From Sabellastarte sp. h YS-2021 (Eukaryota > Annelida > Polychaeta > Sabellida > Sabellidae): DNA of 64,000 bases. Below the pieces are notes generated by a model. The model searched no databases and had not been told where the DNA came from. It saw nothing but the letters and a program-made list of their open reading frames with translations. Of this stretch, positions 6,701 through 63,697 are shown one piece after another (within the stretch, counting starts at the first letter, position 1; every line of letters starts with the position of its first letter). The stretch spans positions 104,054,221 to 104,118,220 of the forward strand of contig OZ024931.1 in NCBI GenBank assembly GCA_964017235.1, read 5' to 3'. A program made the position numbers and the translations under genes.

Positions 6701-9700
6701 ACAGTGAAAACCTGAGGTAACCGTTGATGTACATGAACAAATTTCCCAAAAACGAAGAAGACACAAAATACAAGAGGAGATATTGTGAAGACAGAGAAGC
6801 TGGGGCCAAGCAAACCATACCCAAACCATATAATTACTCATGTCCAGGGATATTTAATTAGCTGTTTTTTGGTGAAAGTTTTACAGTTATTTGTGTCATG
6901 TGGCCTGAATATTTTACACTATAAAAACATAATGGAGAAATCAGAATTCACCAATATCTTCGGGGCATCCATTTTAAGCTGGAGACATGGGAATGAAGTC
7001 TATTATTAAAGTCAATCATTTACAATTCTATTGTTCAAAATAAAGATAAAATAGGTAAACTCATTTTGACAAAAGGCCAATAGTGAGACTTTATCACCTC
7101 AAGAACATAATCTATTAAAAGACCAAACCATTTACTAGAAATTTTTTATCTTTGGAGTAATCACTACACTATAACATCAATTTACACAAGCCATGACTTG
7201 AACTTACACCAGACTTGTAAACAAAGTAATAGAAGTAATAGAAAAGTAATAGATTGGAGTCAACTTCGATGTAATAGTAATAGTAATAGATTGAAATTTT
7301 GCAAATGTAATAGTAATAGTAATAGATTGAAATTCTATCTATTACATCTATTACTTTCTATTATTTTTCTATTACAATTTACCCTTTGCTATTTTTCAGA
7401 AGGAGGTTGTAGAAAAATGATCACTTAACATGGACTTTAATTCTGTAATGAATTAGTTTTCATATAAATGAATACTTTAAATGTACTTTGATACAATAAT
7501 GAATTAATTATCATAAAATCATCACTTTAAATAAACTTCAAAACAATAATGAATTGATTTTGTAGCACTCATAAGTCAAATTCATTTTAAACATTCATAC
7601 ATAAACTTTTCAAATAATCAATATGTAATGTATTGATATTCATCAAAGAATACTAAATATAACACACAAATGTTAAAATAAATACCTTTGAAATATCAAG
7701 GGACCTTTAATTGTCCCTCTTTGATTGAGTGTTCTGAAACAACTGTCTTTGAGCTGGTATTATTAAAGGCTTAAAGAGGCCAATTTAACCTTTAGAAGGA
7801 TTAACTAAATGTTCCTGAGTAAGGAGAAACTGTGACACATGAAAGGCAATCACACAGGTCACTATTGTGTATAATAAGGGCAGCATTGTGGCATGTGTTA
7901 GCTGTTTCACTGATTTACATAAAATTAACAGTTATTATTTTCAAACATAAATGTCACTTTTGAATCATTTTGAGGTGGGCTCTGCATGCAAAGAATTTGA
8001 AAGAAAGGGGTTCTTTGAATGCAGTGTTTTCTTTTGTAAACACTGCTCATCAAGTATTTCTCATAATAATAAGAGTTTTTCAAATCTAACAACTCATCAT
8101 AAAGTGAATAAATATGAGAATTGTTTTACAACAGTTTATTTTCCCCCAGATAATATTTACTGATAATAACATATTTTTCAGCATTTAAAAAGCTTTGCAC
8201 GGAATTTGCTAGAAATATACCTCTCATTACAAAATTTACAGCACTTAAAAGTGGCTTTGTATAGAATTCTCATAAATTCTCCAAGTAGTCAAGTCATTCT
8301 TAAAAAGAATAAATACGGGATCTATTTATTTAATTGTAAATATTCCAAGTGATATACTTGTGATATTTTATCCTTGTATGGAATAATCTGAAGCATTTTC
8401 AATAAAATTAGATGTATAAAGTATCTTGTCAGTTTTATTTCTGTGTTAAAATTATCTCTCAAGTTTGCGCCAAATTGTAATAGAATGTAATAGAAAGTAA
8501 TAGAAGTAATAGATGCCAATGTAATAGTAATAGTAATAGATTTAAAAATTTAAAATGTAATAGTAATAGATTGAATATTTTCAAATGTAATAGTAATAGT
8601 AATAGTAATAGATTGGCTGTAATAGATTACAAGTCTGACTTACACTCTTGTAAGTGAATGTCTCAGAGTTTCAGAGAAGCTGCAAAAATAAGAATAATTC
8701 TAATTATAGTTATCCTTAGTCTTAACAGACCCCAAACTCTCACCTTGCAGTCGTTCATGTGTGTCCAAGAAAATTCACAGAACAAGAGTAATGTTAAGGA
8801 TAGGATTAATCCTAAGGATAAGAATAATCATAAGATCAAGAATGATCCTAAGGATAAGCATTTGTATAAGAGTAAATGTTTATATGCCAGTGGCCCTCAC
8901 CTTGCAGTCGGCCCTGTGCATCCTCAGCCTGGAGCTTCTCTAGATACGTTCTCTGCCTTTCCACCACCTCCCCTCCTGTCTTACATGAGGCATACTCATC
9001 CAGCAAGTCCTCATTCAGTGTGAAAAACCCAGGTCCCCATTTGAACTTCTTCAGTAAGGCACTACCCAGCTCCTTGAGTCCTAACAGTACACATACACAT
9101 TCGTCACATGTTGAATGACTGAAGAGAGCATATTTGTAACAAATGAGATTAACTTGTTCATCAGTAGATTTATTTTGTGTTATTTTTAAGTTATTTTAAC
9201 ATTAAAAAGTACAGGCAGATGGTACAACAATCAGGGTAAACAATGATAACCAGAGCTATAAGACACTCAGACCAATAAAACCTAAATTACACAGAGCTGG
9301 AACCAGGCTTCAGGAATCAACGCGAGTAAATGTTCAAGCGAAGATTACATTATCTTTTGAGACTGCAGTATTTGTAATTATGAAAAAAGATTATTAAAGT
9401 TGGACCTTCCACAACCAAATACTATAATTTTGTATGTAGATTCCACTTTAAGCAAATAAGTCTACCTGTTCTCTAACTGAACACTTAAATGTATTGCATG
9501 GGTTAAATATCATTGATACCTTGTATTAGTCCAATAGATGGTGAGATAAAGCACTTCCATTGGACATTCAGGCCACAATAACACCGCTTACATGGGTGTT
9601 TCTGTAGTCAAGTTCTGTCAGAGCAGTCAGGTGTTTGTCATTTTTTAACATTATAGTAACACTGTCACAAAATTCCTTACAAATATCAGTAATAACGAAA

Positions 9701-15700: not shown

Positions 15701-18700
15701 AATTGGACACATTTACCTGTTTTGTTTTGATCACTGGGGTCAGAGATCATAATCATGGTGACTACAGATGCTTGTCCCAGTTATTTATACATTTAAACAT
15801 CAAAATTATCACAACTGATCTTTTCAGTGATAAGCCCTTATGTCTAACCTTTAGGCTGCTACACTTCTACTCAGAAAATATCACATTTTGCCAGTTTTCC
15901 CATCATTTTTCAATAGAACTGGACGTAGGAGCCTCCTGGGTTATAAATTGGGAGATAAGAGACCTAGTACAGGGTTACTAGATAAAAATGTTACATAGAG
16001 ACCAGACATGTTAAAATATTACACATTGGAAGAGGTTTTTGTGTGACATGTCCACCATAATATTGTCAAAGAATATTGACATGGTAAAGAACCTTGCTAT
16101 GTTTCATTTTCATGATGGAAATTACTAGTATAAGAAAGTTTGTGTTTCCATTTTGTTGTTTTACACTGGACAAAGTTTTACAAAATATTCAATGTGTTGA
16201 TATGAGACTGGTGCTATGTTAAATAATTTTTTTAAATTAATTTAATTAATAATTTCATCAATTTTGTCTTCAAAATGAGTTTTAAGAGTTCAAGAAAGCT
16301 AAAGCATTCACATGACTGAATTCTATATTACATAAAGTAAGCAGGAAGATGTTCAGTACCGATCTGAGGTCATCACCCAGATAGTTTAAATTTTGCTAAA
16401 ATGCATGCATGACCCTGAACTAGATTCAGTTGCACTTATATTAAATATGAATGAGTTATGTCCAGTGAATTTTGTGTTGATAAATTCTTGTCGATAAATT
16501 TCTAAATTTTATATAATTGTTTCTGATCCATAATCACCATTTTTATCTTTGATAAACATCACTGGTAAACCATTGCTAATACAAAAATTGAAACATACAA
16601 TGTACAAGCAAACCACCTGAGCAATTGAAGATTGCCTGTAAAGTACATGAAATGACTCAGGTCTTCATAGGGCCTTTTCTGCTGAAAGTTACCTTGTTGT
16701 TTTAAACATCCTGATTAACTAAAAGTAGTTATTCTGAGCCCTTGACATTCCACTTAATAGGGTTTAATTTTCTCTCATTTAATTTATAAAAAAAAAAAAA
16801 TTTGTTTTTTAATTACCTAATTATGCACATTTTCTTGGATCAATATTAACATTATTTCTGTGAATGACTATGATTAAATACCTAAAGTTAACTGGTACAT
16901 TTTCAGGTACATTTTAAGTATCATTGCACTTTAGCATAATCCCACGTTGCAAAGACTCTTTCTTTGCACTTTCTAAGAAACGGTTAAGAGCAACCATAAA
17001 ACTCCAAAATAATGATCACATCCAGTTATTCTGACTTCTTAAGGCTTCACAAATAATGGATTTTCATCTTAGGTATAACAATCTCCCAGGAGTGTTGTTA
17101 ACAACACCTTCAGTTATTTAATTTATACATGATCAAATTCTTGGTTCCCAATGTTAGCAGTAATTTCAGCCAATTTCTTTGCTTCCACAGTCACCAATTG
17201 TCACATGCTCCACTCAGTTTTCTGACAGTCAAAGAAATACTGGTGTTACAAAGGAAAACAGCATCTCACAAAAACTTTACCACCAAGGCTTTCCATACTT
17301 CAAAATACAATCATATGAATAAAAATCACCAGTGTCATAAAACAATTTCAAATGAATCTTTTCACTGTCAAAACCTCATTAGTGTCCCACTCCAGTGCGA
17401 GGCATTTCTATAATTAGATGACCGAAAATGATGACAGTCTTAGCTTACCAGAAAAGTTAAGTGTGCAATAATACAACAGATGTTCATTAAAACAAGTCTA
17501 TCTGCTAGAACTAAAAGATACACACAAAAAGTGACAAAAATAAGAAGTAATTATACCAAACAACTTTGTCAGTCTTTTAACCTATTTACAACTGTATTAA
17601 CTGGTGCTAATTGCAATTAGGTGGAGATGACCAAAATGCCTTTATCAAGTGCAAGATGTACTTATTAACTTAAGTTTGTTCAATAATTTTGGCTGCATTA
17701 TTTAAACACAGATTTATCAACTGAACCAAATAAAATGAGACATACATTTTGGAAACAATTATTTTGATAACAATTATTACAAGTACCTTATTTGTGCACT
17801 AGTAAAACAGGGCAGTCAGTGAACATAATGTTATACAACAAAAAATCAGCCAGTAGTCTCTCTTTAACTTCAGTAAAAGGTTCTTTATGCTATCCCTGAT
17901 TACACAATCCCTGATTGCATAGTATAGTGTAGAAACATAACGTATCATAAACATAAAAGATTAATAAATATGCAGCGAAAATTGACACTAATACACACAT
18001 TTCTTCCTGTGACATTTAAATTTCTCACCTATGATATAAAAGGTGGCAGCATATGCCTCTACACAAGAGAGCTTGCAAGGTCTGCCATAGTTGATGGGAT
18101 TGGCGGCAATGAGATAAGGCAGCAGTCGGGGATGGCTACACTTCATGCGGCTAAAAGGTGTGTCCTCAAGTCTGGCCCAGGAACAGTCAATGACAGCCAT
18201 ACCATGTTCCATCACTAGTTCTCTGTACAAAACATACAGTCAATGACAGCCATACCATGTTCCATCACTAGTTCTCTGTACAAAACATACAGTCAATGAC
18301 AGCCATACCATGTTCCATCACTAGTTCTCTGTACAAAACATACAATCAGTGACAGCCATACCATGTTCCATCACTAGTTCTCTGTACAAAACATACAGTC
18401 AGTGACACTCATACCATGTTCCATCACTAGTTCTCTGTACAAATCATACAATAAATGGCAAGCATACCAAAAAGACAGTGGAGTAAAAAGGTCAAAATTG
18501 AAGTATTATTTTTATGTCTAATAATTATAACCCAAGTAAAACAATGGGCCTTTACTTTAGACCACAAAAATCATTTATAATAAATATATGTGTTCAAGAA
18601 TGTTCAATAACAAATTTACACATAGCAGTCTCCTTAACCTGTAGTTTCTAATCTCAACCATTGTTAACATCAGCTTAGAATATTTAGTTTCTCTGACAGA

Positions 18701-23880: not shown

Positions 23881-24505
23881 TTCAGATTGAGAGTTTATTT
23901 GCTGTAGTGTTTACTGCCAGTGGACATTTTAATAGCATGGAAACCCCATGGATCACCATAAATATACTAAAATTGTAAAAAACGGGGGTGGGGGAGGTAA
24001 ATAAAATTTAGAAACTGAAAAAAAACTTATTACAATGCTTTTATCTATTGCCACAAGATTCTCTGTCACCAAAATCTTTCAAAGCTTCTATGTAATATAT
24101 CCCAAGGTTAACATGAGCTAGAACTATACTTATACTCATTATTGCTAAAAATCTCTACAACAGAGAAAATACAGAAGGGGACAGCATTTCGCAGTGGACA
24201 GCGTTTCGCCAATTTCTATTGTACTTCATTTAAAACCAACATCTAGCATGATACTGAAGGAACTGTATAGTATAGAAAAGAGTGCAATATGTCTTGATAC
24301 TTTTCTGAGAATTTAGAACTGACAGTATGCAGGATTATAAAGATTAGTAAAAAGGTTTATATGCAGTAAATATTATGATCAACAGACTGCCTTTTATATC
24401 AGAAATGAAATACTAAAATTGGGTTTGAGTTGCTCGTCAGGCCCGACCGTAATCACTACTGCTCAGCTACCCAAGTTCGTCGCCTATCCAAGTTCGTCGA
24501 ATCCG

Positions 24506-25600
24506 GGAATAGTGCCCTCCTAGAATAGTGCCCTCCTAGAATAGTGCCCTCCTAGAATAGGGCCCTCCTAGATGACTGCCCTCCTAGAAGACTGCCCTCC
24601 TTTTGAGAGGGTGGACAACTTCCCTCCTTTTTAAAAACAATATGAATTAATCATAATTTTGAAAAATAGTATAAATTTTTCAAATAATATATGTATACGT
24701 ATATATTTTATGATGCATTGTGAAAACACTTTAAAAGGTTTTAGCTTGCATTGTGAAAACAGTTTAAAAAGTTTTATTTTTGCTGCTGTTTGAAGTCTAT
24801 TCTGTATTATCAAAACATTTTAGCTGCTCAGGCTTTCTTGATTAAAGGTGCAGTTCAATCTGCTAGAGTGTTTGAAGTGCCAAATAGCTGCTCAGACCTT
24901 TTTGATTAAAGGTGCAGTTAAATCTGCTGGTGTTAGAAGTGTTTTCTTTGAGAATACCAAGACCTGCTCAGGCTTTAATGATTAAAGGTGCAGTTAAATC
25001 TGCTAGTGTTTAAAGTGTGGTCTTTGTGAATTGAAATAGCTACTCAGGCCACCAACTTTTCCACCTGAGCTATGGAATGTACATGACCTTACAATGAGGG
25101 ACCAAGACAGGACGAATAACTTCTGTGAGGCTTGGAATCACGGGTTTCGAAGCATAGTTGGTCATAACCATCCAACTGTGTGGCGACTTATTGATTGCAT
25201 CAAGGAAGATGAAGCTCAGACGAGGATGATGCTCATACAGGAGGCCCATGGACAACCACCAAGGAAAAGAGTCCGCAGAACTACCAAGGATCTCCAGGAT
25301 CGTCTAAAAAACTTGTGTGTGGCAAGATCAGGTGCAGAGAAAACTATTGAAGAGTTCCTAAGAGGTGTTGGACACTGTATTAGACTTTTCTAAGGACACT
25401 TTTACTGCTATGCCAATGTTACATTTTTAAAATGCTTACTAAATGTTTGTAAACACTGCTTTGTCTATATGTCTTCTATGCTACATCTTTAGAGTGCTTA
25501 ATAAATGTTCATATTGTTTTTAAAAAGGAGGGCAGTTGTCCACCCTCTCAAAAGGAGGGCAGTCTTCTAGGAGGGCAGTCATCTAGGAGGGCACTATTCC
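24506..25600 (+). mobile_element. Mutator-like (MULE) element D with long terminal inverted repeats
   Basis: The ends GGAATAGTGCCCTCC are inverted copies of each other. Each arm also contains GACTGCCCTCCTAGAAGACT and GAGAGGGTGGACAACT. The left arm (to about 24650) carries three extra 20-bp GAATAGTGCCCTCCTA units. The right arm occupies about 25510-25600. An open frame from about 25045 to 25393 encodes 'FPPELWNVHD', 'MRDQDRTNNFCEAWNHGF' and 'HPTVWRLIDCIKEDEAQT', the C-terminal end of MULE transposases; the catalytic part is absent. Before it are three to four ~70-bp repeats of 'gattaaaggtgcagttaaat' (24830-25040). No clean 9-bp target duplication was found. Confidence 0.8.
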
Positions 25601-25677
25601 GTTCCCCAGTTCGTCACCCACCTTAAAAATTGTTAAGGATAAGCAATATTGATACCAAATTTAAGCAAGTGGAATAC

Positions 25678-26359
25678 TAGACGTGGTTACCTAGGCTCTA
25701 CTTGCATGTAGAGCCATGGCACGGCCCCACATAGAACTGGAGATTTGGATAGAATCTTTTTCTGTTGAATAAAACTTAATAAAATGACTGAAAATGGTTT
25801 AATATAGTTAGAAACAGTTGATTTTAAGCCAAGGACGCAACAAATAGAATGTGTGTACAAAATATATGCTATTTTGCATAGCTTTTATAATGAAGGAACA
25901 TTTTTAAATTTTTGAAGAAATGGTCCAAAAACCCTGGAAAATCAGGAAATGTCATTTATTTTTTGTCAAACATGTGTGCATGTTGACCGATTGTTGAAGA
26001 AAATGAAACAAAATAGTTGTGGGAACAGTTATGTGTTCACATTTTTTTTATATTTATGTTTTTTGCAAATCTCCAGTTCTATGTGGGGTCGTGCCACGGC
26101 TCTACACGCAAGTAAAGTAGAGCCGAGGTAAGCACGTCTAGTGGTGGTGGACCAGTTCACGCCCGGGTACCAATTCACGCCCACCCTCAATTTTCTTGAA
26201 GAGTAATAATTTTTCATAGAGAAGATGTTTACCACATCATAGATAATCATCAAATTGATCATATACATTTGTTATTTATTGTTTAACTGTAATTGTTTTG
26301 GATAAATTTAGGGGTGGGCGTGAATTGGTACCCGGGCGTGAACTGGTCCACCACCACTA
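25678..26359. mobile_element. MULE-type MITE B with 9-bp target duplication
   Basis: Inverted arms at 25678-25748 and 26064-26140 start TAGACGTG, run through TTACCT..GGCTCTACTT, and share CCCCACATAGAACTGGAGAT. The direct repeat GTGGAATAC lies at 25669-25677 and 26360-26368, a 9-bp duplication typical of Mutator-like elements. Element C is inserted at the last TA of the right arm, which separates that arm from its target copy. A shrunken relative lies at 54594-54646. Confidence 0.85.
26141..26357. mobile_element. 217-bp MITE C inserted at a TA in the right end of B
   Basis: The ends are GTGGTGGTGGACCAGTTCAC and its exact inverse. The arms of about 44 bp include GGGTACCAATTCACGCCCAC, and TA stands on both sides (26139-26140 and 26358-26359). 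The centre is AT-rich and non-coding. The near-perfect arms suggest this is the youngest layer in the nest. Confidence 0.85.
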
Positions 26360-27066
26360 GTGGAATACATACTAATGATGAAAATGTACAAGTGTACAAG
26401 GATGGATAATTGTGAAGAGGCTTTATATTGTCAAAAATGCAAGTGACGAACTTGGGTAGGCGACGAACTTGGGTAGCTGAGCAGTACAGTAGATGTGCAA
26501 CAACCAATGGATTGAGGGCGATAATTGGGAATTTCCTAGATATCGCTCTATCAACCTCTAAAACGAAAGCCAGTAGAACATAACATTTCACTGAAAATAA
26601 CACAAATATAGAACTATTAGGTGGTAACAATTTCATTTTTTACTTTATTTTTGTTTTCTACCTTCACGTTTGTATTTTGTCATGTGATTTCTTGGTGCAT
26701 TCTCAATCTGTTTTGGATTATTTTCCGGGATAATGTACACAAAGTAAACATAAATTTTGGTTATTCAAATTTAAGCATTAGAATATAATTCAATAGCATA
26801 TCTACAGGCGTGTTTCATTCTGCCCAGGAATTCATTACCACATAAACAATTATTTACTTAACTGAATTTACAGGGGTTTAAGTTGGATCACATTTATTTT
26901 AACATAAAAGGTGATATGGTGAATATGTTATACACACCTAGCTTTGAGGTTGACAGTTAAACCTTAACCTGAATATTTGGAAAGGTGGTGTAATTGTTTG
27001 TGGTATCAAATGGTTTACATTACAACTTCCTGATTAACTGCGTTCCTACAACCTCTTGACTACCCA

Positions 27067-56240: not shown

Positions 56241-59200
56241 CAAGCTACGGAGGCTGTTACAGAGAGAGAAAGCAAAAACGGTACTTTGGAGTATCTCCTG
56301 GAGGTTACGATCCCACCAATTTAAACATTGCAAAGTGTCAGGAGCTCTGCAGAGCCTACAAGTATGAGTATGCAGGTAAAGTCAGTACTTTAGATACGGA
56401 GTACCTTACGATTGAAATGTTTTTGTCATTCAGTAATAATTGTCGATCTGATATGTACATGATAGAATGACCTTGAAGCTATTTGAATAGTGTTCCTTGC
56501 TATGTTAATAACTTATCCATTAATTTATCAACATTCATTTATATCATGTCAACGATTGAAATTAATTTAGAATTTTAAAAAAATCACTGAAGGCATCACT
56601 AGGGACTGGTTTCACAAAGGATCTTAGGCCTGGTCAAGCATTGGCTAAGTCAGGGACTTAAATCTAAGACTTTATGCTCAGCTATGTTTGGGACTTAAAT
56701 AGATTTCACAAATAGCGACTTAGCCAAATCCCAGCTTATCAAAAAACCACAGTGGTTTTCTGTCTCATGTGACCTCTGTTTCTATTCAAAGTATATGTGT
56801 TTGGTGGCATTTATCCTTTGTTCTTCCAAACTACCAAAGACTATCTTAGGGAGGTGTTGTATATATTAACATTTATTTACAGCCATTTAAAATTCATAAG
56901 TGAAACTAGGTTCATGGCAGCCATATCTAAGTGTATGTTTACAAAAATTGAGCCCCCTCCCAGGTGGACTTAACTTTGAGTGTGCTAGCTGCTTTGTCAA
57001 ATACTCAACGACCAGACACTTAGCCTAAGTTTTTGACATAAGTCCTATTTTAAGTCTAAGTCCAGGCTAAGTCCTTTTGTGAAACCAGCCCTTCAATACT
57101 GATGTCTTTCAACATACTAGTATTCAAAATAACCACATTGTCAGATTTGTATATATGTGTCAATTTACATCACCCAATTTGTGTATATATGTCAAGGTTA
57201 CTTGCCCACATGCGATGTCTAAAGTCTTGCCATTTTCTTCACAGGTCTTACTAGTAACAAAGACAGTACCATGGGCTTCTGTTTCTGTGGTAATGACCTT
57301 CCTCCCGGAGATACTCAGGAGAATGATGCTTTTTGTAACAATCCCTGTTCAGACGGATCACAGGACTTATGTGGAGGCTTTGACCATGTGGCCGTACACA
57401 AAACAGGCATACCAATCACAGGTATGAAGAATGTTTTTACAATTACAATACACATTAATTCTACAGAGTGATTATCAACTGCATGTGTTGCTAGATTCTA
57501 TTTAATGTAGAAATAAAGTCCGAGGTTTTGTGATTTATAACCCCAGATAATTCACAAATTTCCGGCGAATAACGGACTACATTTATGAGACACATTTAAG
57601 CTGTTAAATTATTTACTATCATGCAGCAGTATGTGCCTTGAATGGGTTAAATCATACTTTATCACTACAAATAAAATTTAAGAGCCCCATGGTACAATAT
57701 ACTTAAGAACACTTTTTACAATATTTGTATGTGTTTATGGTAAATCTGTTGATGTATTTATGGTGTAGGCTTAACTTTGAGCTCAGATGCACCAACAGGG
57801 GTGGCTGAAATCTTCAAGCCTGTAAAATTTGACTACAGTATAGTGGAGGGGCCTGTCAGTGTTCTTTACCAGATAGCATTTGGGGATGGAGCAGACACGT
57901 AAGACATACTCGTAATGTATACACAGCAGATATAATTCTGAAAGCAGGTCAATAAGAAATCATTTTATTATATTTTGTACTGTTTAAAGGTCAAAGTTGG
58001 AGTGTTACATCCTGTTCAACAGCCAGGGTCATATTATGACAGGTCCTCAGCTTTTGTCACTTGTGGGAGTCAAACCCATACAGAGGTGACAACCTGTGAT
58101 TAGATGCCAAACCTGCTGACCCAATAGAGCACTGCATGAGGACCTCTTGTACTATTTTAAAAGAGGGACAAGTTGTGAAAGTTGACATAAAACCCAAAAT
58201 AGGATCTCGGCCTAAGCAATACGAGAGTCTAATTCTTATTCAACAGGAAATGAATGGAGAGGTTATTGGTTTTACACAGACTATTACTGCACAGATTTTA
58301 ACCAAACAAAAACGAGACACAGTAGTGAAAAATACCTTTTCAATGATATATAGAATGTATTAGTAGGTTAACAAAACACCATGATGACATATTTTATTAG
58401 CCTCTATACTTAGATGAAGTCACAACATTGTATATGATGATCCATGGGGTTTCAGGAGATTAATGGATGTGTCAGGCTGACAATCATTGATGGTGGTTCA
58501 TTTCTACAGTATATTGCCCTATAATATTACATTATTGTACGTACTATTCTCATATGCCAGCTTGAGTAGGATTTACTGGAACTGACTTTCCATACTGAAG
58601 AATTATTCCAAGCTTGTGTGGCAAATGCATTTAGTACAAGTATTGGTGTTCTCTCACAGGTCTGTAGGGAATGCCACAAACATGGACACAAAGATATTCT
58701 CCTTGCCAGGAGAGTATATAGTGACACTTCACGTCAGTGATGCAGACATCCCAGCACTGGTAAGTTGTGCTTAATGTATATGCAAGGTATTTGATTTGAT
58801 GAGACCATTTGTTGAGATTGTGAGGCAGCAGTACATCAGCCTTGCACCTGGAAAAGAATGTTGCCATTTCACTCTTAAATTTATTTAATAAGAAACTAAT
58901 GAACCTCTGTTTGAAGTGGGTCATGTATTCCACCATTGCTTTTTTGTTTGACACAGATGAACTAAATATATTTCTGCTTTCAAATGCCAGCATGCAACTT
59001 TTGAGTAAAACTTACACTGATAAAAACTACTGGTATCTCTGCATTTAATCTGTTGGCAATCAGAAGAAATTGTTCATAGTACCAAACACTGATAGGAAAC
59101 ACTGTCCATGATAGATGGAGGATAGTAAACATAATAAGAATGATCATTAACAGAAATTAAATTTAGTGCTTGATTGCATTGAGTTGCTGATTTTGCATCT

Positions 59201-62104
59201 GTTTTCTGGTCTGCAGTCTGGGAAGTACTCTGTGAGGATGTTGTCCCAGTCTCCAGTGAATACAATCACACTGCAGTGTCCAGAATTTGTGATCACATAT
59301 GAAGAATTCAAGTGCAATGCTTCAGTGGTGGGTGGTTCCTACATGCAGGTCACTCTCAGCTGGAAAGATGACAGCTCAGACACATTTCCCATCTCAGGTA
59401 AGTGAAACATCAAGAAACATTTCTCATCTCAGGCTATTGAAACCTCAAGACACATTCCTCATCTCAGGTAACTGAAACAGTGAAACCTCAAGACACATTT
59501 TTCACACCTCGGGTAAGTGAAACAGTGAAACCTCTGTTCCCCATCTCAGATAAGTGAAACTTCAAAACCCATTTCCCATCTCAGGTAAGTGAAACTTTGA
59601 GACACTTTTCCCATCTCAGGTGAGTAAAATAGTGAAACCTCCAGACACATTCACCATCTCAGGTAAGTGAAACAGTGAAACCTCAAGACATATTCCCATC
59701 AATTAGCGAAACAGTAATGCCTTAATACACATTCCCTATCCTATGTACCTGAAAGATTAAGACCTCAAAAAACATTCCCCATCTCAATTGACTGAAACAG
59801 TCACACCTCAAGACACATTCTCCATCTCAGGTATGTGAAAGAGTGAAACCTCTGTTCTTCACCGCAAGAATAGTAAAACCTCCTGACACAATCATATTCA
59901 GGTATGTGCGATAATGAAGCCTCAAGACACATTCCCTATTTCAGGTATATGGTATAATGAAACGTCTGGACATATTGTCTATTTTGGGTATGTGGAAGAA
60001 TGATAATGATGTAAAGTTACAGACTCCTTGGTACTTGTAGCTGCCTCTGCTGTCTAGGTTACTTGACTATTTTCAGTGTTGATAATGCCATTTGAAATGC
60101 AACTGTTTTAGCACTGTTTGGATTTTATTTGAATTACCCTTTTGTAATGTGTTATTAATGTTGCAACTCAATTTTCCATTGCAGGTGTTTCGATTTTTGA
60201 ATGATCTCATTCTTAATTGTAAAAACCCTGTGTTAATGAAGATGTTTCTGATCTTTGAATTACCCCTCGGATAGTTTTTACTTTACCGGTACGAGATTTG
60301 GACGATGATATAAATTCTATATTTTAACAATTTAATCTTTTTATTTTGTTTCAAATACACATCCATATTATTTATGGGGGTTGGGGGCTTGCCCCCAATT
60401 ATAACTCTCTTAATTTAATTTTAAATTTCCTTGAAAGTTTCTTGTAATTATCCAATAAGGTGGATCTCGTACCGGTAAAATTGCTCCTACCCCTCTATTA
60501 TTAATGTTGTAGACTCCATGCTACATGCAGCTGGTCTTGCAGTACCCAATGCAGAGATCGCTAACATTGGGAACCTGGGTAGTGCAGTGAGTAACATCAT
60601 CTTGTTGCCATCCTCTGAGTTCCAGCAAGAAGGCCTGCTACTGGGATTTGAGTTCTTCACATACAATGCTGGATCCACCACAGGCACCATAGAGATCTAT
60701 GTAAGCTTTCTGCAATCAAGATAGTGTTATTCAGTCAATAGATACTGTATAAGTAGAAAATTGAGCTGGAAAAAAATTCACTAATTGTTGGTTTTTCAAG
60801 AGATTTACTAGAATTAATTTCACTTATGGTCCATTTCTTCTTCAGAGAATAATAGAGATTGAAAATTTTGCTGTAAATTAATTTTTGCTATGAAAGCTCA
60901 TTAGTTAAAATAGGCAAAATTAACAGGTGAAAATTTTCACTTAATACAGTATTTATATCATTTTTCAGTTGTTTATGATTTAAATTATTTCAAGCATACA
61001 TGCAATGCATATTACAAAATAAGTGTGTTTTTATGAAGAAGTCATTATTTATCCATTCTCCATGGTGAACTCTTGACTGGTAGGATGTCGAAAACAGACT
61101 TTCCTATACTGAGTTCTGGTCAAAAGGAGGAGCCTTGTTGCTAATTACTTTTAGCTTTTTTGAAGTACTTTTTCTACATCTCTACCTTTATTTTCCTGTG
61201 GATCCCCATACTTTTTACCTGACTTGACTCCATGTTTTGCTCACTCTGTACTTGTGTTTGTAGGTTCTTGCACCTGACTGTTCTGGTGCCTCCAGTACTT
61301 ACTGCCACCAGACCAGGTCCTGTTCTGCAGGCTGTGGGGTGTATGGGCAGGCCAGCTGCACCACCTATTGTATCTCCAAAGGTCAAATAATTCCCCTGTA
61401 ATATGAAGCCAAATATATATTATTGGCCAACAAAAAAGCTCTTATTTTTGAGATAATGGATAAATTTATTTTTATTGATATTTCCGTCACTATGCATGCC
61501 AGAAGTAATCTGAAATCCTGTGTTTGATATTATCTGCATGTAGAACCATGTTTAAGATTTTTAATACTGGAAGCTAGCATTACTGTGTATTCCAAAGTGG
61601 AAGACTTAATGAAAATGACATTCCCTGAAGGAAAACCCTGTGTGTGGTTTACTGTGTTGGTAAAGGTAAACAAAATACATAAATAATGATAATGGACAAC
61701 ACCTTCTGTTGTGATACTACATGCAGTTTCTTCCCCTCAATCAGAGTGTTTAGCATAAAATGTTTGTGAAAAACTGAATCAAAACTACTGCTGGCACATG
61801 TAAACAGTTTTAACAAGTAATACACCCTGCAATAGTACTGTTAATCTAATTTGCATCAGAGATAATAATTGTCATTTGTTTAAAAGAATAAAATTGTGCT
61901 GTAGTACTGATGCATTGAAAGGGTAATGAAAAGTAATGAGTGTAGTGTTACCCTGTAGGAGGATGTGTCGAAAATACTTGCACTGCCACTTCAAGGTCAA
62001 TGAGTGCATACCCAGAATTCACAGTGGTGGAAGTATTCTCAGTCACTTCTTCTATATTGAATGGCTATGAGAAATACTTACTGAATAGTGTGGAACAAAT
62101 TCAG
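56241..62104 (+). CDS. WSC- and PKD-domain protein (polycystin-1-like), partial, continues beyond the window
   Basis: Eight exons with matching phases: 56241-56375, 57245-57421, 57769-57898, 58660-58759, 59217-59397, 60513-60700, 61264-61381 and 61959-62104. The first two encode a cysteine-rich WSC domain, from 'SYGGCYRERKQKRYFGVSPG' through 'CQELCRAYKYEYAG' and 'GFCFCGNDLPPG' to 'LCGGFDHVAVHKTG'. The next three carry PKD-like sheets ('PVKFDYSIVEGPVSVLYQIA', 'FGDGADT', 'YIVTLHVSDAD', 'QCPEFVITYEEFKCN', 'TLSWKDDSSDTFP'). Later exons hold 'GFEFFTYNAGSTTGTIEIY' and a Cys-rich piece, 'CSGASSTYCHQTRSCSAGCG'. WSC domains bind carbohydrate, and PKD repeats are extracellular mechanosensory or adhesion modules. 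The order suggests an invertebrate polycystin-1 relative, but membrane segments lie outside the window. All donors are good except GTCAAA after 61381, which the following exon's phase supports. Confidence 0.85.
56602..57091. mobile_element. ~490-bp MITE-like inverted-repeat element in the first WSC intron
   Basis: The left end GGGACTGGTTTCACAAAGGA and the right end 'gtccttttgtgaaaccagccc' are inverses, continuing inward as repeated 'ctaagtc/gacttag' blocks. The interior is non-coding. No target duplication was confirmed. Confidence 0.7.
57986..58133 (-). mobile_element. tRNA-derived SINE, family 2, second copy
   Basis: The minus strand reads 'agtgctctattgggtcagca' (A-box region), 'gtatgggtttgactcccac' (B-box region), 'aaaagctgaggacctgtcat', and the tail 'gttgaacaggatgtaacact' ending in CAACTTTGACCTTT. 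It lies in the intron before the 58660 exon. Confidence 0.75.
59398..60010 (+). repeat. Minisatellite of copied 5' splice sites at the end of WSC-PKD exon 6
   Basis: Exon 6 ends TTTCCCATCTCAG|GTAAGTG. The intron then repeats this junction at 30-75 bp steps: 'catctcaggtaactgaaaca', 'cctcgggtaagtgaaacag', 'catctcagataagtgaaac', 'catctcaggtaagtgaaac' and 'catctcaggtgagtaaaat', later with GTATGTG variants (59826-59990). About ten units are readable, most with 'cctcaagacacattcc' between them. At least five have a consensus-quality donor. I take the first (59397/59398) as the real junction because the coding similarity ends there. Confidence 0.88.
60282..60479. mobile_element. 198-bp MITE with TTTACCGGTACGAGAT ends
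   Basis: TTTACCGGTACGAGAT at 60282-60297 is exactly inverted at 60464-60479. The interior is AT-rich except 'gggggttgggggcttgcccc'. It sits about 33 bases upstream of the exon starting at 60513, so it replaces most of the sequence where a branch point would be expected. The target duplication is unclear. Confidence 0.75.
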
Positions 62105-62107
62105 GTA

Positions 62108-63170
62108 AAGAAATGTTATGTTAGAATACTTCTATAGTGCAAAACCATAAACAGCATGCTCTATGCGCTTTACAATTTAGGAATATGAATACTAGACTGA
62201 CAATATACACATATATGAATTGGTAGATAGATCATTGATAGGATTTTCTGAATAGGTAGGTTTTGAGGTCCTTTTTAAAATCTTTAAGTGTGTCTTTTTG
62301 CCTTAAGTAAAGTGGGAGTCTATTCCATTCATATGGTCCTGCAACTGAAAAACTTCTTCTGCCACATGTTTTGTTGTTCCATTTAGGTATTTTCAACAGA
62401 CTCTGTCCACTGGAACTAGTATATCTTTCTGTTTTTTTCATAACCAAGTAAGTTTCTAATATATTGAGTTGATTGGCCATGAAGAGCTTTAAAAACATTG
62501 ATTACCACACTAAAAATGATCCTGTCCTTTATTGGCAACCAGTTTGTTGCAGTTCTTTCAGAATAGAGGAAGTGTGTGTTTTTCTGTGACATCGCATAAT
62601 CAATCTAGCAGCTCCATTTTGAACTCTTTAAACTTTTGCTGTGAGGTACTGATTTATTCCATATAGTAATGAGTTGCGGTAATCCAACTTTGAAATAACC
62701 ATTGCATAAACTAAGGTTTTCGCAGCCTCTTTGGTGAGAAACTGAAGCAACATGAGAACTCATATCCCAAGTATTGGTCCATAGTCACTCCCACATTTCT
62801 TGCTGTGTTTGATCTCAAAATAGTATCCCCACCTATCAGAAAAGAGTTTATTTTGAGTTTTTTAGTTGACGTCTAGTGCCAAATACCATGAACTCAGTCT
62901 TTTCTTCATTTAATTTTAGTTTGTTTTGTTTCATCCATTCACCTATTTGTTTTACTCCATTTTGAACTAAATTTATGACTATAGCCTGATCAGTTGGGGT
63001 GCCACTAGGTTTTAATGTAATCAGCTGGTATAGTCTAAATGAAACAAAGGCCCCAGCAATGAGCCTTGAGGTACACAGCATTCTAGCAGCTGTGGAGAAC
63101 TTTCCCTGCCATTTACAACAACTGTCTGTTCTATCATGCAAGTATTACTGAATCCACTTGATTGCTCCTT
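62108..63170 (-). mobile_element. 5'-truncated L2-like LINE in the intron after the 61959 exon
   Basis: Minus-strand pieces give 'WMKQNKLKLNEEKTEFMVFG' (63141-62848), the segment right after the reverse transcriptase palm. Further on come 'KTCGRRSFSVAGPYEWNRLP' and 'DFKKDLKTYLF' (62498-62232), the ORF2 C-terminus. A 3' UTR ends in 'ttctaacataaca' at about 62110, like the tail of the copy at 32504. The frame is broken between the pieces. Its end lies within a few bases of the splice donor at 62105. Confidence 0.8.
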
Positions 63171-63697
63171 CTGTGATTCCAAAACAGCTTCTTAAATGGT
63201 TTACAAGGATATGCAATCTACTGTGTCAAGAAATCCCCCAATGTTTCATGAATGACAACAGCAATATGTTACAACACCAAAGTAAAATTAATAGTGTAGC
63301 ACAGAATTGAAACAGGGATAAAGTAATGATCCAAAACATGGCTAGATGATATTTCCTTTGAGTGTTTGCCTTTTTTATTGCAAAACATTGGTTCGATCGT
63401 CCTTAATTCTTTAAACCTGCAAGTACAACAGAAATTGTTATAAAGTGAGATTTAATGTAGTATGGTACATGAAGTATTTATCAGATTTTTCCTTGTGTTG
63501 TGTTGCATATAATATTATTATGGTAAAATTAGTGTTGTAGATCTGCAAAATCCTTTAAAAATGTGATTTTGTCACTTAAATTAAGTCCACAGGATCTACA
63601 TTATAAGTTACAGAAGTGGTTTATATCTTTTAACTGGAATTAATGTATGAGGTGAGAAAACATTTTAATCTACTTTATTTTTTTTTCACAACCCAAG
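63171..63697. other. Intron sequence, nothing recognised
   Basis: AT-rich sequence between the LINE and a candidate exon. It ends in a long pyrimidine tract (63675-63687) suited to a 3' splice site. The exon expected to bridge the phase between 62104 and 63698 may be hidden here. Confidence 0.4.

Follow-up and report, generated by a model that had tools for sequence, protein, structure and literature searches.

Tandem copies of the exon 6 donor edge in a WSC/PKD-like gene of Sabellastarte, and similar arrays at apparent donor edges elsewhere in its genome

In a 64,000 nt stretch of the Sabellastarte sp. genome (the window, which here means the whole of this stretch), the sixth exon of a WSC/PKD-like gene is followed by a tandem repeat whose units resemble the exon's own 5′ splice site. 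This raises the questions of how such copies arose, which of them is used, and whether they reflect a tendency of this genome to duplicate the edges of its exons. When joined, the exons of the gene match the Pfam families WSC (1.1e-12) and, weakly and under the curated cut-off, PKD_4 (5.3e-4). Exon 6, as numbered in the initial annotation of the window, spans positions 59217-59397 of the plus strand, with the open frame SGKYSVRML...DTFPIS, and ends in phase 1 with ...CATCTCAG/GTAAGT (here and below, the slash indicates the junction). It joins an exon on the same strand at 60513-60700 (DSMLHAAGLAV...), which was placed from its acceptor, TTGTAG/AC, its open frame, its match in the genome and the letters at the junction. 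The intron between them is about 1.1 kb long and contains the array; no extra exon was recognised between exon 6 and the exon at 60513.

The array comprises 16 units of 32-43 bp on the plus strand, with bounds at 59375-60009 when set by hand and at 59378-60003 according to TRF. This confirms the minisatellite initially outlined after exon 6 at 59380-60010, and makes it slightly longer. Units of 43 bp are the commonest, and the shorter ones lack an 8-bp block. Unit 1 (59375-59414) straddles the exon 6 donor, crossing the junction at 59397/59398, and consists of around 23 exonic bases, CTCAGACACATTTCCCATCTCAG, followed by 17 intronic ones, GTAAGTGAAACATCAAG; the unit had been described as the exon end plus the donor and some 30 bases of intron, of which the first part holds and the intronic length does not. 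The GT is retained in 11 of the 16 copies and lost in the other five, in line with the estimate of about ten donors. Likewise, several copies are as good as the real donor, as had been claimed: the 9-mer at the junction is CAG/GTAAGT in units 1, 6 and 8, and CAG/GTGAGT in unit 7 (59602-59644, plus strand), so that two of the later copies match the nine bases of the real donor exactly. As located by a pattern search of the genome, the copies of CATCTCAG/GTAAGTG in unit 6 (59577-59591, plus strand, with the GT at 59585) and in unit 8 (59655-59669, plus strand, with the GT at 59663) share 15 bases with the real donor.

Chance can be excluded as the source of the array, since its TRF score reaches 375, whereas the best of 100 dinucleotide shuffles of the 1.5 kb around it (59001-60500) scored 49. 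Across most of the array, TRF matches amount to 66-69% at unit-length periods, with 72% in its last part and 81% at a period of 152 bp; because the copies are strongly diverged, an assembly stutter appears unlikely. The array has a single match in the 1.79-Gb genome, which is itself. A search for a paralogue of the gene with which to date the array found none at E 0.01, all four genome matches being the gene's own exons.

Reading through the first-copy donor (GTAAGT, 59398-59403, plus strand) leads to ...PISGK-stop before any later donor is reached, and hence the use of any later donor would truncate the protein. From this stop, we infer that splicing of exon 6 uses the donor of the first copy. 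The array is probably an exon-edge minisatellite like those known as mirages in amphioxus; the first copy would serve as the donor and the intronic copies would be spliced out with the intron. According to this explanation, some 35-43 bp of DNA across the junction between exon 6 and its intron would have been duplicated in tandem, with the array expanding into the intron, while the 5′-most copy would have remained exonic and in use. Each later copy would then represent a ghost exon end with a decoy donor, intronic and removed with the intron, and the copies would have drifted after the growth of the array. As growth on the side of the intron would leave the mRNA unchanged, the array could persist.

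A second gene in the window also carries repeats at its junctions. This is TSR3, on the minus strand, identified by the Pfam families Ribo_biogen_C (1.6e-35) and Fer4_RLI (4.3e-15). Here, TRF detected an array of 53 bp × 5.4 with 94% matches (18183-18469, minus strand), the unit of which combines the TTTTGTACAG acceptor with ~40 bases from the start of exon 4 (which begins at 18222); by hand reading, use of an upstream acceptor would shift the frame into TAG. The donor edge of TSR3 exon 5 (8896-8923, minus strand, exon end at 8901) has one partner only, at 8739-8766 of the same strand (82% over 28 nt, at a spacing of 157 bp), and this pair of copies was counted as weak. Therefore, of the three repeat-straddled junctions that had been proposed for these two genes, the WSC/PKD donor and the TSR3 acceptor array stand, whereas the duplication of the TSR3 exon-5 donor is weak. 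Tandem repeats cover 7.6% of the window and 2 of its 27 junctions, which were placed by hand (17 from WSC/PKD, leaving out any exons upstream of 56241, and 10 from TSR3), when 2.05 are expected upon rotation of the repeats (P for two or more = 0.49). The local case for a bias towards the duplication of exon edges, as suggested in the initial annotation, thus fails.

Other repeats were observed in the window. Its left end is occupied by a large higher-order tandem array with periods of 148/292/428 bp (180-2116). At 24462-26481, nested inverted repeats (CTCAGCTACCCAAGTTCGTCGCC ... GGCGACGAACTTGGGTAGCTGAG, with inner GTGCCCTCCTA arrays) surround the open frame NNFCEAWNHGFRSIVGHNHPTVWRLIDCIKEDEAQTRM, in what we take to be something like a decayed DNA transposon. 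Additionally, a WSC/PKD intron contains reverse-transcriptase-like fragments on the minus strand (62200-63190), by their appearance a broken LINE-like copy.

Arrays of donor motifs were searched in the whole genome as three perfect donor 9-mers separated by spacers of 22-52 bases, using the reversed word as the control and grouping neighbouring rows by hand into distinct arrays. The CAG donor CAGGTAAGT produced 142 matches, with at least 27 arrays among the 100 matches listed, versus 45 matches and five arrays for the reversed word. Single sites for these two words number 17,123 and 12,589, respectively, in the whole genome, and CAG arrays are thus around four times as frequent per site as those of the reversed motif (at least 27 in 17,123 vs. 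5 in 12,589; Fisher p = 0.0012). The AAG donor AAGGTAAGT produced 39 matches in 11 arrays, counting once an 11-kb cluster on contig C18, versus 12 reversed matches; with 20,303 single sites in the genome (27,950 for the reversed word), AAG arrays are at background. Per site, CAG arrays, whose count is a lower bound, exceed those of AAG threefold (p = 0.0014), and AAG shows no difference from the reversed motif (p = 0.62). Single-site counts cover the CAG and AAG words, and the remaining words were compared by matches. Thus, CAGGTGAGT gave 335 matches vs. 3 for its reversal, with at least 24 arrays among the 100 matches listed (up to contig C5); the CTG donor CTGGTAAGT gave 80 matches in 16 arrays vs. 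5 reversed matches; and CAGGTCAGT, with 74 matches in 21 arrays vs. 108 reversed matches, was below its reversal, for which 107 of the 108 matches are on one strand. The reversed-word controls are noisy, with 45, 3, 108, 12 and 5 matches for CAGGTAAGT, CAGGTGAGT, CAGGTCAGT, AAGGTAAGT and CTGGTAAGT. The acceptor-like word TTTTACAG showed little excess (203 matches vs. 160 reversed). Two of the five control arrays of reversed motifs (L049-L053) are open, coding-like repeats and the other three are not; the former are L049 (4543-5618), with 36-bp units and a frame of 358 aa without a stop, and L050 (4299-6075), with 21-bp units and ~590 aa likewise open. No donor edge was recognised at these five arrays, the borders of which were inspected less closely than those of the donor-motif arrays.

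We read the surroundings of 39 donor-motif arrays (27 for CAGGTAAGT, six for CAGGTGAGT and six for CAGGTCAGT), and an apparent coding exon is open into the first donor in 25 of them (18/27, 3/6 and 4/6, respectively), L045 and L069 being the weakest of these calls. Five arrays are located away from a coding edge (L044, L056, L058, L061, and L068), and the reading of the other nine gave neither an edge nor a non-edge: according to TRF, four of them run off the fetched stretch (L055, L072, L076, and L082), the rest being L060, L062, L066, L073, and L077. The arrays in L056, L058, and L068 have a common flank (ctatggttt.caaa...gactggtcccc) and belong to an apparent dispersed element with its own CAGGTAAGTAATAGTAGATA minisatellite.

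Searches against Pfam covered 34 of the 39 loci (all but L055, L060, L061, L076, and L082), and those against PDB covered eight. Database matches were obtained for 8 of the 25 exon-edge arrays, five of them at E < 0.001 and three weak (E 0.002-0.014). The first group includes PDB matches to squalene synthase (L047, query residues 1-59 of 59, E 5.5e-16), synaptotagmin-3 (L041, 1-39 of 40, E 1.6e-15) and NALCN (L048, 4-41 of 42, E 4.5e-11), and Pfam matches to EGF-like (L059, 8.7e-5) and Ig (L046, 1.7e-4) domains. The weak matches are to a kinase (L075, Pfam, 0.0023), an EB module (L079, Pfam, 0.0068) and Piwi (L043, PDB, query residues 1-39 of 40, E 0.014), and equally weak Pfam matches appear at two loci that were not called as edges (L056, 0.0089; L072, 0.0017, in the repeat peptide). 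The other 17 exon-edge calls, which have no counted database match, are based on open frames and exon borders read by hand. No supporting homologue was found in PDB for L042, L057, L063, or L075; we assume the first three to be glucosidase-like, syntaxin-5-like and syntaxin-16-like, respectively. In L047, L041, and L048, the alignments stop no more than one residue short of the first donor, indicating that the exon end is older and that the copies derived from it; the weak Piwi alignment at L043 likewise runs up to the array. At least 35 aa are open upstream of 27 of 35 arrays, compared to 41% of the 1081 sites that served as the null (p = 1.4e-5); this null is coarse, and the fetched stretches are unequal. 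The comparison dropped the four run-off arrays, and its 27 positives include three loci not called as edges (L044, L062, and L077) and miss one that was (L079, 27 aa). In L057 (956-1301, sense), the unit consists of ~45 exonic bases plus GTAAGT, and the intron contains near-whole, in-frame copies of the exon end, at 17 codons per unit.

The genome-wide bias towards exon edges that had been proposed for this DNA is therefore favoured by part of the data, namely the recurrence of donor-edge arrays (25/39) and the excess of the CAG, CAGGTGAGT and CTG words, and opposed by another part, with no excess of AAG arrays over the background, fewer matches to CAGGTCAGT than to its reversal and little excess of the acceptor-like word. 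With CAG arrays in fourfold excess over the reversed motif and AAG arrays in none, a bias of duplication to exon edges is suggested, short of being demonstrated; the CAG/CTG excess is open to this reading or to that of generally denser repeats in transcribed DNA. A frequency of arrays simply proportional to donor type was rejected, as CAG and CTG exceed their reversals while AAG is at background and CAGGTCAGT falls below its reversal in matches.

The repeat units showed no clear sign of function. Their exonic part ranges from 6 to 48 bases, with a mean share of 0.52 that does not depart from uniform (KS p = 0.64; 20 arrays, with shares derived manually from the TRF bounds, a part of the periods chosen manually, and 6 of 26 arrays, L042, L047, L071, L074, L075, and L081, omitted as having no usable bounds), which fits unit breakpoints falling as if at random around the junction. 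In the window array, the columns of the donor core are barely better kept than the others (0.76 vs. 0.72), and selection on its donor copies was rejected on these values; the nine best-kept columns, ATCTCAGGT (0.81), overlap the junction. The pyrimidine content of the exon tails is 0.49 in 26 arrays and 0.47 in 12 other exons (p = 0.74), and reaches 0.65 in the window unit's own tail. We found no clear sign that the copies act as donors, as points of a ratchet or as platforms for U1, and they probably represent harmless remnants.

In transcribed genes, an active mutational process could duplicate DNA preferentially at 5′ splice sites, for instance by breakage coupled to transcription or to U1/splicing. 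Such a process would give rise, in hundreds of genes, to exon-edge minisatellites of every age, which would supply material from which splice sites could shift and introns be gained; we consider this a tentative proposal, with the odds against it. There is a substantial chance, if short of even, that we are dealing with ordinary minisatellites of a repeat-rich genome, which would appear anywhere in transcribed DNA and cover some junctions with no exon-edge bias, an explanation that rivals the bias and not the anatomy of the arrays. The outcome of the local rotation, the background level of AAG arrays, the deficit of CAGGTCAGT with respect to its reversal, the seemingly random exonic share of the units and the many further arrays in the window are all in agreement with it, but it does not account for the fourfold excess per site of CAGGTAAGT arrays over the reversed motif, or for the matches to CAGGTGAGT and CTGGTAAGT, noisy as the reversed controls are. 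It is hardly credible that a mobile element carrying a minisatellite brought in the window array: the similar, dispersed-element-like flanks of L056, L058, and L068 are a precedent for such elements, but the window array is matched nowhere else in the genome, on which ground this origin was disfavoured, and it has the coding exon itself as its first unit.

Two further explanations would assign a role to the copies. Units with an acceptor-like end and a donor-like start (ATTTCCCATCTCAG/GTAAGT) could act as dual-specific sites or ratchet points, such that mis-splicing would silently rebuild exon 6/GTAAGT, and arrays would be kept as a fail-safe or for stepwise removal. This would agree with the higher frequency per site of CAG than AAG arrays, AAG being a poor acceptor. 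The steps to units 6 and 8 (187 and 265 nt, counted from the first donor) would be sufficiently long, the exon tail of the window unit has a pyrimidine content of 0.65, and dual-specific AGGT sites are documented in human (PMC10809524). Nevertheless, we find this explanation improbable, because the exon tails of the arrays are not enriched in pyrimidines as a group, the CTG arrays, incapable of acting as acceptors, are likewise above their reversal by matches, the donor core is barely better kept than the rest and the intron spans just ~1.1 kb. Even less probable is that the extra donors were retained as platforms or decoys for the binding of U1 snRNP, blocking early polyadenylation or tuning splicing. 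Several copies do match the consensus and arrays show an excess of some donor-type words, but the conservation of the donor core hardly exceeds that of the rest, 5 of the 16 copies have lost the GT and the use of any of them results in a stop. The exon-edge minisatellite is our preferred reading of the window array.

Tandem repeats that change gene structure have reportedly been studied in human (PMC2812944). Lancelet genomes are around half a gigabase in size, and the genome analysed here is larger. In the portion of the literature covered by our search, we found no genome-wide count of exon-edge minisatellites outside amphioxus. Composite AG/GT sites occur in the window units, which could in principle work as both acceptor and donor, as in the dual-specific sites and recursive splicing treated in PMC10809524; in contrast, the exon tails of the arrays are not acceptor-like as a group. 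The window array also shares with the Rogers model of intron gain, as outlined in PMC4974935, the tandem duplication of a segment with AGGT, its copies carrying AG/GT, but differs from it in that the edge of an existing intron was copied and the array lies inside that intron, with no new intron. The closest parallel is with the mirages of amphioxus, which two reports (PMC3087553, PMC3902484) describe as tandem repeats across exon-intron boundaries, at either end of the exon, in the Adh3, globin, troponin C and PGBD5 genes, with units of ~10-160 bp, many of them with AG/GT, and with reportedly undisturbed splicing. Variation in allele length and somatic instability are further features ascribed to mirages. 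As in that system, the tandem units of the window array span an exon-intron boundary and several genes are affected, with 25 of 39 donor arrays and one acceptor array, in TSR3. Whereas exon-edge minisatellites were described gene by gene in amphioxus in the papers found, the two dozen or so apparent donor edges found here came from a pattern search in the sequence of one assembly. The ages of these arrays span from old, as in the window (66-69% matches), to nearly identical copies, as in L048 (98%), and in such a genome the tie that has been proposed between the duplication of exon edges, the choice of splice sites and the gain of introns becomes countable.
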